Source of the DNA: an uncultured Clostridia bacterium
GTDB taxonomy: Bacteria > Bacillota > Clostridia > Lachnospirales > Anaerotignaceae
NCBI GenBank assembly: GCA_944378105.1
Contig: CALWGC010000024.1
Coordinates: 21,026-85,025, forward strand
Length of the DNA: 64,000 bases
Reading direction: 5' to 3'
Each line of letters begins with the position of its first letter. Positions within the stretch are counted from its first letter, which is position 1. The notes beneath the pieces were generated by a model. That model did no database searches. It saw nothing but the letters and a program-made list of their open reading frames with translations, and was not told where the DNA came from. Of this stretch, positions 8,391 through 12,687 are shown piece by piece. The position numbers and the translations under genes are program-made.

Positions 8391-8505
8391 GGCAGGCCAT
8401 GCGCCGCCAATACCGCATGGCCTGCCCGTTTGATTAAATTAGCAGCCCCCCTCACAAGCTTTGGGCTGCCTTGCCCCAAGAGCCCCCAAAAGGGGCTCTT
8501 TTTTT
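8391..8505 (+). terminator. Tandem hairpins and terminator after the YczE-like gene
   Basis: Two structures lie between the converging genes. The first is a 13-bp perfect stem (GGCAGGCCATGCG at 8391-8403 with its complement at 8414-8426) without a U-run. The second, AGAGCCCC (8479-8486) with GGGGCTCT (8492-8499) followed by seven T, is a classic terminator. Confidence 0.8.
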
Positions 8506-9326
8506 ATGCCAGACGATGCACCAAAATGGTGGTATTGGAGAACTTCCCTTGATTATCGGTGGCATACAGTGTAATAACTTCGCCGCCGCTGGCCTGCACA
8601 ATGGCACCGCCGGAAAGATGCTGTTTCTTGCCGGTGGAGGCAATGTCGCAGGTGGATGTGGTTCCTTCAATTTCCGCGCCATTGTTTTGCAACTGGCAGC
8701 TGACCGTTGCAGAAGAGCTCTGGGAGTCAGACACATCAGTAAAATACAAAATTTGATAGGTGCCTTCGTTAACCAAAGTCACATCCGTGGTGGCAGGGGT
8801 ATGGGTGATGTCGCTGCCTTCCAACAATTCGTTGGTAGCAAAGGTCAATGCACCGCCACTGCCGCCTGCATCTTGTTCCCCGGTATTGGTTGCAAACAGA
8901 GCACTCAACGGAGGTGCTTCGCCGGTGGCACCGGTATCGCCTTTTTCGCCGGTATCGCCTTTTTCACCGGTGGCACCCGTAGCCCCGGTTGCACCGGTGG
9001 CACCAGTAGCCCCCGTTGGGCCGGTGGCACCAATTTCGCCGGTTTCGCCTTTTTCCCCAGTTGCACCTGTGGCCCCGGTTTCGCCGGTTGCACCCGTGGC
9101 ACCGGTGGCACCCGTTTCGCCTTTTTCGCCGGTAGCCCCTGTGTCGCCTGTGGCACCTGTGGCACCGGTTTCACCGGTTGCGCCTTTTTCGCCTGCAATC
9201 CCCGTTGGGCCTGCTTCGCCGGTGGCGCCTGTTGCACCGGTCGGACCGGTAGGTCCTGTTGGGCCGGTGGGTCCCGTTGGGCCAATGTCGCCGGTGGCGC
9301 CTGTTGCACCGGTTTCCCCGGTTGCG
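8504..9326 (-). pseudogene. Collagen-like protein, C-terminal half (no start; severed from 12037-12687)
   Basis: An open frame of about 275 codons encodes roughly 46 GXT collagen triplets (GATGATGDIGPTGPTG type), then a 130-residue globular C-terminus (VTLVNEGTYQILYFTDVS, SCQLQNNGAEIEGT, VITLYATDNQG). That C-terminus resembles the TNF-like jelly roll of BclA-type spore-surface proteins. Reading upstream, the frame enters the recombinase gene in another frame, with no start codon that has a ribosome site. The collagen gene at 12037-12687 has the opposite defect: an N-terminus but no C-terminal domain. Joining the two at ACCGG gives one open frame of 464 aa. It may be silent unless the intervening segment is removed. 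Confidence 0.75.
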
Positions 9327-9330
9327 CCGG

Positions 9331-10852: not shown

Positions 10853-10924
10853 GCTTTTTCTTGTGTTCCATATCTTCGCCTTCTTTTTTTCCTTTGCAAT
10901 CACTTTATGCGCCAAGGCCGTTTT

Positions 10925-12040
10925 TTAACACCGGCGCAATAATTCGGCTTCAAAGGCCGCAAAGGCCGAAGGCAAGGGGTAAGCTTGCTTCAGTTGGGTC
11001 GGCGTCACCCATAAAAAGGGCGCCACTTCCTCCTCTGCTTCCACCCAAAAACCGGTCATGTGCCACTCGATATGGGTAAAAATATGCTTGGCTGTTTTGA
11101 GCGGCAGCGCCTTGGCTTCTATGCCCCAAGTTTCCAACACCGCCTGGGCCTCATTGGGGGTGCCTTCTTTTTGGGGAAATTCCCATAAATCGGCCAACAA
11201 GCCTTTGGAAGGCCGCTTTTGTAGTGCAATTTTCCCCTTGTGGTGGAGCAAAAACACCAGCCGTTCCTCCACCCGCCGTGGTTTTTTGGCCGCTTTCACT
11301 GGGTATTGCAGCATGGTATTTTCCCGAAACGCCGCGCAGTGGGCCGCCACGGGGCATTGGTCGCACAAAGGCGCCCCATTGGGCAGACAAACGGTGGCCC
11401 CCAGTTCCATCAACGCCTGATTAAACGCCCCCGTCATGGGATGGGGCAAAATTGCTTGTACCTGCTTTGTAATCTCGTTTTTCACCGATTGTTTCATAAT
11501 GTCGCCGCCATTGGCCGTCCAGCGGGTCACCACCCGCAGCACATTGCCATCCACCGCCGGCACCGGCAACCCATAGGCAATGGAGGCAATGGCCCCCGCC
11601 GTATAAGGCCCAATGCCCGGTAACTGTAACAACGCCTCATAATCGGCCGGCAGTTCTCCGCCATACTGTTCCACCACCACCTGGGCACATTTTTGCATAT
11701 TGCGCACCCGGTTATAGTACCCCAATCCTTCCCATAGCTTTAACAGCGTTTGTTCCTTGGCCTCTGCCAAGTCCTGGATGGTGGGTAGCGCTTCCAAAAA
11801 ACGCTGAAAATAAGGTTTCACCGCCTCCACTCTGGTTTGCTGCAGCATAATTTCCGACACCCAAACCCGATAGGCCGTGGGGTGATTACGCCAAGGCAGA
11901 ATGCGCGCATGTTCCTCAAACCAATGTAATAACGGAGCCACCATCTGGGGCAGATGGTCCGTCTGGGGCGGCTTTTCTTCTATTTCTACCGTTTCCTGTA
12001 ACGATAATTCCAGTTGTACCGGTTCTTTTTCCTCTGTCAT
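10925..12040 (-). CDS. mutY: A/G-specific adenine DNA glycosylase MutY
   Basis: 371 aa. MutY removes A mispaired with 8-oxoguanine. Motifs are WVSEIMLQQTRVEAV, the helix-hairpin-helix LLQLPGIGPYTAGAIASIAYG with the catalytic Asp in VPAVDGNVLRVVTRW, and the Fe-S cluster cysteines in CLPNGAPLCDQCPVAAHC. The C-terminal NUDIX-like recognition domain (KIALQKRPSKGLLADLWEFP) is present. ATG at 12040 is preferred over the TTG three codons upstream because AAAGGA is 10 nt away. Its ATGA overlaps the stop of the truncated collagen gene, and its promoter is inside the 3' end of that gene, so it is transcribed independently. Confidence 0.93.
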   Translation of the reverse strand: MTEEKEPVQLELSLQETVEIEEKPPQTDHLPQMVAPLLHWFEEHARILPWRNHPTAYRVWVSEIMLQQTRVEAVKPYFQRFLEALPTIQDLAEAKEQTLLKLWEGLGYYNRVRNMQKCAQVVVEQYGGELPADYEALLQLPGIGPYTAGAIASIAYGLPVPAVDGNVLRVVTRWTANGGDIMKQSVKNEITKQVQAILPHPMTGAFNQALMELGATVCLPNGAPLCDQCPVAAHCAAFRENTMLQYPVKAAKKPRRVEERLVFLLHHKGKIALQKRPSKGLLADLWEFPQKEGTPNEAQAVLETWGIEAKALPLKTAKHIFTHIEWHMTGFWVEAEEEVAPFLWVTPTQLKQAYPLPSAFAAFEAELLRRC

Positions 12041-12687
12041 GTTCTCCAAATCCTTTCTGGCCTTGTCCCTTTATTGTAGAGGGCGAACAAGCATTTGTCA
12101 ATGCGGGGCGCAAAACCGGTATGCCCAGTGGCGCCTGTGGCACCCGTCTGGCCGGTGGCTCCGGTGGCGCCGGTTGCACCGGTAGCGCCCGTTGGGCCGG
12201 TTGGGCCGGTGGCACCCGTTGGGCCAACGGCAGTAATCAGGGTATAATCTGGCGATGTGCCAGGGATCCCGCTTGGGTTATTGATATCGGCACGATAGAG
12301 GCTGCCGTTATAATACACAAAATCGCCTGCGGAATAGAAGGCAAAGGGGCTAAATGCCGTTGCCGTATCCAAGCCTTGGCCTGTGGCCCCGGTGGCGCCG
12401 GTTGGGCCGGTAGCACCTGTGGCTCCCGTTGGGCCGGTTGGGCCGATGGGGCCTTGCAGACCTTGCGGCCCCTGGGGACCGGTGGCACCCGTTGGGCCGG
12501 TTGGGCCCTGAGGACCGTTTAAACCTGGCGCACCGGTGGCACCGGTTGGGCCGGTTGGGCCTTGGCACCAGCAAGTTGCGCCACAACAGGAGTTACACCC
12601 GTTTTGGCAACCATTGGAACAATGATTTTGGCAGCCACTTTGGCAACCACAGCGATTGGCGTTACTTCTCACTCCGTAACAATACAT
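12037..12687 (-). pseudogene. Collagen-like protein, N-terminal half (truncated, expressed frame)
   Basis: 216 codons from ATG at 12687 (GGAGG 7 nt upstream). The first ~40 residues are very Cys-rich (CGCQSGCQNHCSNGCQNGC), then come collagen triplets (GPTGPTGATGAPG) and a ~45-residue insert with a carbohydrate-binding-module look (FYSAGDFVYYNGSLYRADI). A second collagen stretch breaks off at GATGHTG. The last ~25 residues (FAPRIDKCLFALYNKG) are encoded by the mutY promoter region and have no collagen character. The globular C-terminal domain expected for trimerisation is missing; the matching piece lies at 8504-9326. It overlaps the glycosyltransferase gene upstream by 19 nt. Confidence 0.75.
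12073..12101 (-). promoter_or_regulatory. sigma-A promoter of mutY
   Basis: On the minus strand TTGACA (12101-12096) and TACAAT (12078-12073) are separated by exactly 17 nt. The promoter starts only 15 nt inside the presumed left boundary of the intervening segment, so the segment carries its own mutY promoter. Confidence 0.8.

Follow-up and report, generated by a model that had tools for sequence, protein, structure and literature searches.

The window, i.e. the whole 64,000-nucleotide stretch of DNA analysed here, belongs to a genome (G000) of 34 contigs with a completeness of 98.5 %. On its minus strand, a GT2 glycosyltransferase gene, the 5′ half of a collagen-like gene (N-half), mutY, a large serine recombinase gene and a collagen-like 3′ half (C-half) follow one another in this order (Table 1).

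Table 1. Positions of the split collagen-like gene, the intervening element and neighbouring features in the window
Feature	Position	Strand	Basis
GT2 glycosyltransferase with TPR-like part	12669..13775	-	Pfam PF00535, 1.1e-21; TTG start; overlaps the start of the collagen gene
Collagen-like gene, 5′ half (N-half), to the A of the core	12129..12687	-	Pfam collagen; dN/dS against G001
mutY-side junction, core AC	12128..12129	-	Putative cut between 12129 and 12128
Intervening element, 2,789 bp, putatively excised	9340..12128	-	Join and att arm analysis
mutY promoter TTGACA-17-TACAAT, just within the element	12073..12101	-	11/12 positions match
mutY, A/G-specific adenine glycosylase	10925..12040	-	NCBIfam equivalog TIGR01084, 329.2 bits (cut-off 286.5)
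Terminator-like hairpin in the mutY/recombinase gap	10825..10850	-	
Large serine recombinase, 474 aa	9331..10755	-	Pfam Resolvase PF00239, Recombinase PF07508, zinc-ribbon PF13408
Recombinase-side junction, core AC	9339..9340	-	Putative cut between 9340 and 9339
Collagen-like gene, 3′ half (C-half), BclA_C-like domain, from the C of the core	8504..9339	-	Pfam; C-domain dN/dS
SigK-like sporulation sigma factor, uninterrupted (context)	2958..3635	+	TIGR02846, 285.6 bits (cut-off 298.65)

The N-half starts with an ATG at 12687 after an AGGAGG motif and encodes a cysteine-rich head followed by collagen repeats, and it lacks a C-terminal domain. The C-half carries collagen repeats (Pfam, 1.7e-22) and ends at 8504 with a domain resembling BclA_C (E 1.3e-6; 28.8 bits, under the Pfam cut-off of 38). 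Its frame has no upstream ATG and only six candidate starts, i.e. four TTG and two GTG, all of which lie within the recombinase gene, 34–146 codons before the core of the junction. The first-pass annotation of this DNA had thus correctly described one frame with a start and ribosome site but no C-terminal domain, and another with the C-terminal domain but no start. It had also reported 465 codons in frame after joining and a 2.79-kb segment carrying a large serine recombinase with its stop at one junction; these figures agree with the joined product of 464 aa plus stop, the element length in Table 1 and a recombinase stop codon at 9333–9331, i.e. 6–8 bases past the core, with the corrected join differing by one residue.

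The correction concerns the crossover point, which had been placed at ACCGG (12116/9326). This motif is indeed shared by the two junctions in the same codon phase, as is ACTGGNNNNACCGG, a match that is weak on its own since such words are common in Gly-X-Thr runs. We do not adopt this crossover, since the midpoint of the inverted arms is an AC, that of ACTGG, 13 bp upstream. Cuts between 12129 and 12128 and between 9340 and 9339 leave the lengths of the excised segment and of the product the same as the 12116/9326 join. The final codons of the recombinase gene lie beyond the core in the window, so that after circularization the frame would have no stop there and would extend through the mutY-side arm, while the recombinase genes of the two related species described below stop before the core.

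Conservation of the split gene and location of mutY

The same gene order was found in all three species compared for the genus, i.e. in G000, G001 (CALWLF010000081.1) and L045 (CAJFUM010000125.1), the last being 99.7 % identical over 8,703 bp to G002 (CAJFIN010000078.1, Candidatus Neoanaerotignum galli). The elements measure 2,789, 2,768 and 2,723 bp, respectively, and both other species, in which the junction is readable, keep the split and an in-frame join (416 aa in G001). Two complete collagen-like genes flanking mutY, the arrangement named beforehand as speaking against a split gene, were found in neither of them.

Both halves are under strong constraint, with dN/dS values between G000 and G001 (NG86) of 0.038 for the N-half (174 codons) and 0.043 for the C-domain (136 codons), compared with 0.086 for mutY, 0.066 for GT2 and 0.15 for the recombinase; between G000 and L045, dS is saturated. 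That a half lacking an ATG is under selection is the strongest sign that it is expressed in the genus of the window, and joining to the N-half is the simplest route.

MutY matches at E ≤ 1e-60 were present in 31 of 57 family genomes, comprising the three of this genus, 27 with a locus and one without. In all 27 loci from other genera, the roughly 1.5 kb to either side, or whatever remained up to a contig end, contain neither this recombinase nor collagen. The usual location of mutY in relatives, which the first-pass annotation had proposed to compare, is therefore elsewhere, and capture of mutY by the element is seen in this genus alone (3/3 genomes). Only one mutY was found in G000, the sole other match being 29 % identical and likely an endonuclease III. 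A sigma-70-type promoter with the same TTGACA-17 spacing lies just within the element before mutY in G000, G001 and L045; a promoter scan of the region gave three sites against 2.8 expected, with the mutY site matching at 11 of 12 positions.

The split occurs more widely than expected. C-domain matches were obtained in 12 of the 58 family genomes searched, and five loci outside the genus (G025, G076, G022, G290 and AP9) have the same split with an AC core, inverted arms and an in-frame join. Two belong to the genus g11, with elements of 7,503 bp (G025) and 6,698 bp (G076, on a single contig). The C-domain is under much weaker constraint in g11 than in the genus of the window, with NG86 estimates of dN/dS between G025 and G076 of 0.42 over 140 codons of the C-domain, 0.25 over the N-half and 0.19 over the recombinase. 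A third g11 genome, G077, harbours such a gene without interruption (481 aa), its two ends being of the same kinds and its genomic context a different one.

The G022 element (3,557 bp) contains another collagen-like gene (L079, about 7037–8431). In G290, a member of another family, a single contig carries a 9,051-bp element with relaxase-like fragments and a radical-SAM rRNA methyltransferase-like gene of the RlmN/Cfr kind (L170, 12716–13699), both recognized by eye. Candidatus Stoquefichus massiliensis AP9 is a cultured isolate with the same split and an ICE-like element: a GT2 gene and the N-half are followed by ICE-like genes (FtsK- and VirB4-like, by eye), and the recombinase and C-half lie on another contig. 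The end of its N-half (L125, about 1316–1495) and the start of its C-half (L175, from 13410) appear by eye to share a long identical collagen stretch, so that a joined gene would carry a duplication. A GT2-type gene also precedes the N-half in G001, L045 and, judged by eye, in G290 and AP9.

Further loci showed one half only, the other being off the contig or not located (G059, G024, two loci in G033, G285 and L047). At L078, L082, L070 and L146 the elements are reversed, i.e. the recombinase end borders on a truncated collagen 5′ half, whose frame continues into the arm; such 5′ halves often end in FIYAQ.

Attachment sites and the recombinase clade

The core is the AC of ACTGG in G000 and L045, with a matching AC in G001, and AC alone is common to both junctions in G290 and AP9. 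Each cut was set between the A and the C, and the recombinase-side and far-side arms were paired over 25 positions; the cuts were placed here because the would-be attP arms pair around this dinucleotide, at 16 of 25 positions in G000. The corresponding attP values are 17 in G001, 15 in L045, 18 in G025, 18 in G076, 19 in G022, 18 in G290 and 19 in AP9, the two halves of which are on separate contigs. The attB arms pair at 6 positions in G000, 6 in G001, 14 in L045, 5 in G025, 7 in G076, 10 in G022, 7 in G290 and 11 in AP9; hence the contrast is small in L045 (14 vs 15). Random arm pairs (n=20,000) gave a mean of 6.47 (sd 2.30), with at least 14 pairs in 0.27 % and at least 18 in none, a control that flatters the att match since the eight loci are those for which both halves are available and their cuts were set manually. 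The Gly-X-Y period is kept at all eight joins, the frame being traced from the start codon in G000 and G001.

The best NCBIfam match of the G000 recombinase is CcrB (113.7 of 900 bits), followed by XisF (NF041201, 104.7 of 375); among the named recombinase equivalogs (CcrA/B/C and XisF), none reaches its curated cut-off. The recombinases of G000 and G001 are 64 % identical with a dS of 1.93, compared with 0.46–0.91 for their neighbours (mutY, GT2 and both halves), which indicates another history or faster evolution, and the recombinase may have been exchanged between related elements. No directionality factor was recognized by eye in the element of the window: small frames are present before the recombinase gene in G000, G001 and L045, but we do not put them forward as such, as they run through terminator-like hairpins. 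Small frames preceding the recombinase at L170 15314–15571 (G290) and L046 5568–5903 (AP9) resemble each other on visual inspection and have no counterpart in the 2.8-kb elements; they are candidate directionality factors.

Among the 29 recombinases from the fetched genomic contexts, 12 adjoin collagen (a two-triplet pattern at L089 was counted as chance), and all 12 fall into one clade of 16 with a support of 100/98. The collagen label requires four changes on the recombinase tree, compared with 9.5 in shuffles, none of 500 being as low. A profile built from the 12 and run against the whole order matched 107 of 295 genomes (E ≤ 1e-110); among the 30 loci listed, 9 are collagen-adjacent by pattern, to which G025 and G076 and, by eye, L144 and L153 are added, 9 of these 13 repeating earlier loci, which the profile favours. 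The G012 recombinase (L089, L143) is near-identical to that of G033, arm included, and sits beside non-collagen DNA. In viral contigs, a profile from the three species of the genus found no relative, and the 12-row profile found 29 relatives, of which none has the collagen pattern within 500 bases downstream or a terminal repeat (one of them runs off its contig and one has 161 bases left downstream).

Proposed excision, sporulation and alternative explanations

A contig of Ca. N. galli from an assembly labelled IDBA (L024) opens with 99 bases that are identical to its positions 2724–2822 and end in ACTGG. The first copy, comprising the recombinase end and core, leads into the mutY-side arm, and the second into the C-half; in the other assembly of this species (L045), it is the N-half that precedes the mutY-side arm. 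This exact junction of the two element ends at the core would be the signature of an excised circle. It was seen on a single contig in one metagenome assembly, and a tandem duplication would give the same picture. Directly after the second copy, L024 lacks by eye 23 bases of L045, which breaks the frame. We infer that this gap is a scaffold seam between a circular and a chromosomal contig. IDBA contigs at k = 100 overlap by 99 bases. Protein searches for the joined gene with the C-domain of the predicted fusion products of G000 and L045 gave no match at E ≤ 1e-3 (644 and 1,356 candidates, 5.8 billion proteins), and in the G002 assembly, where the N-half contig ends inside the collagen gene, the joined DNA matched the C-half piece only; MAGs and protein sets of this kind may not contain the joined gene. 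Excision itself is supported by the anatomy of the locus and one assembly.

Spo0A and SpoIVA score above their cut-offs in all three genomes of the genus, and the host is predicted to be a spore-former by gene content. The SigK-like factor falls short of its threshold, as does the Bacillus subtilis control. Strict SigE/SigK patterns found no promoter at the GT2 gene or the recombinase gene of G000, G001 and L045, and one loose SigE-like match lies inside the end of mutY in L045. An AC-16-CATAC spacing was seen by eye before the GT2 gene at all three loci.

We consider it likely that positions 9340–12128 form a gene-intervening element that is cut at the AC core by its own large serine recombinase and whose removal restores a 464-codon gene, probably in the sporulating mother cell, a timing taken from the gin, yin, skin and SPbeta cases. 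The restored product would be a BclA-like spore-surface protein, presumably modified by the adjacent GT2 glycosyltransferase. Since the element carries the sole mutY found, under its own vegetative-type promoter, the element would be expected to persist in dividing cells and to be lost only where a cell is terminal.

In principle, a mobile element could instead have broken the collagen gene and left dead or decaying halves, with excision outside the life cycle of the host. The ICE-like element of AP9 and the relaxase-like fragments of G290 do indicate recombinases of mobile elements, and the C-domain of g11 is only loosely constrained; in the genus of the window, however, both halves are strongly constrained, open and in phase in three species and the recombinase is intact (dN/dS 0.15), which makes decay improbable here. 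We regard it as rather unlikely, and less so than decay, that the element leaves by random phase variation or low-level mobility in growing cells, with no sporulation programme. The sequence is silent on timing, the recombinase gene of G000 and that of G001 gave no match to a sporulation-type promoter, and the circle contig stems from a gut metagenome in which mixed cell states are possible. Yet random loss would cost the cell its only mutY found, and the target resembles a spore-surface gene in a host with the gene content of a spore-former.

That the halves are two separate genes, with the C-half translated alone, for instance through translational coupling with the recombinase gene or initiation at a non-standard codon, appears very unlikely. 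It could draw on the in-frame TTG and GTG codons of G000, on the four candidate starts of L045 (one of them ATG), which likewise overlap the recombinase gene, and on an ATG four codons (G025) or a GTG two codons (AP9) before the core; but in G001, G076, G022 and G290 the stretch from the last upstream stop codon to the core is devoid of ATG, GTG and TTG, the junctions lie in paired att arms, and the G077 gene is continuous. Collagen repeats can break assemblies, as the truncated G002 contig illustrates, but an assembly artefact is hardly conceivable for an arrangement that recurs in the assemblies of three species, for one of them in a second assembly (L045), and on the single contigs of G076 and G290.

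The idea of a split gene was therefore right in essence, with the core corrected. Returning to programmed excision, the element probably originated from ICEs or similar elements, with a recombinase clade adapted to Gly-X-Thr codon runs, and would here be reduced to the recombinase and a captured mutY. It is tempting to speculate, although we hold this extension somewhat less probable than not, that this is a domesticated element holding the only mutY hostage, so that one cut joins a spore collagen gene and deletes a repair gene, and that its ICE-type, Gly-X-Thr-adapted clade has repeatedly split spore-collagen genes of clostridia and their relatives. Excision would then be restricted to the dying mother cell by selection against mutators. 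Programmed excision has been described in a handful of sporulation genes; if our reading is true, collagen-like genes are a new target class spanning several lineages and a cultured isolate, the element is ten times smaller than gin, a mobile element has become fixed through carrying an indispensable host gene, and gene callers mis-split such surface proteins.

Comparison with known systems

XisF acts in heterocyst development. As the recombinase that excises the fdxN element, it is the second-best NCBIfam match of the window's recombinase, far under its cut-off. Among the open-licence papers that our literature searches brought up, none reports a collagen target for such elements or a split bclA3. 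In Clostridioides difficile, the glycosyltransferase SgtA is described as acting on BclA3, a collagen-like spore-surface protein (PMC7157674), resembling the glycosyltransferase gene beside a collagen-like gene found here, for which a spore location is predicted only.

The element would belong to the sporulation gene-intervening kind, like skin, gin and yin; its new features would be the collagen target and the housekeeping repair gene that it carries. Skin interrupts sigK and SPbeta interrupts spsM, the precise excision of SPbeta rebuilding a spore envelope gene (PMC5025042, PMC4191935). Both share with our locus a sporulation gene interrupted by an element; in contrast, they are prophages or prophage-like with other targets, and the portions of these reports that we draw on mention no housekeeping repair gene. 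Yin, in yabG of Clostridium botulinum, has a recombinase of the same Pfam make-up and gives a circle and a restored gene (PMC10747680); as far as the account goes, it differs in being prophage-like, in having a putative directionality factor and in its target gene.

With respect to the cargo, the SpyCI islands of Streptococcus pyogenes likewise tie a mobile element to DNA repair, as they sit in mutL and are associated with a mutator phenotype (PMC4129442), whereas the present element carries its repair gene, mutY, intact and interrupts a different gene. A further parallel is gin, a non-phage element of 28.6 kb with 31 genes, three of them recombinase genes, in gerE of Bacillus cereus ATCC10987, for which a 9-bp core and a frame-restoring, sporulation-specific excision have been demonstrated (PMC5595907). 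From what is described of it, gin resembles the present element as a non-phage element that splits a sporulation gene, has a serine recombinase and a short core, and restores the frame on excision, while the element in the window has 2.8 kb, two genes and a collagen-like target, and its sporulation-specific excision is predicted.
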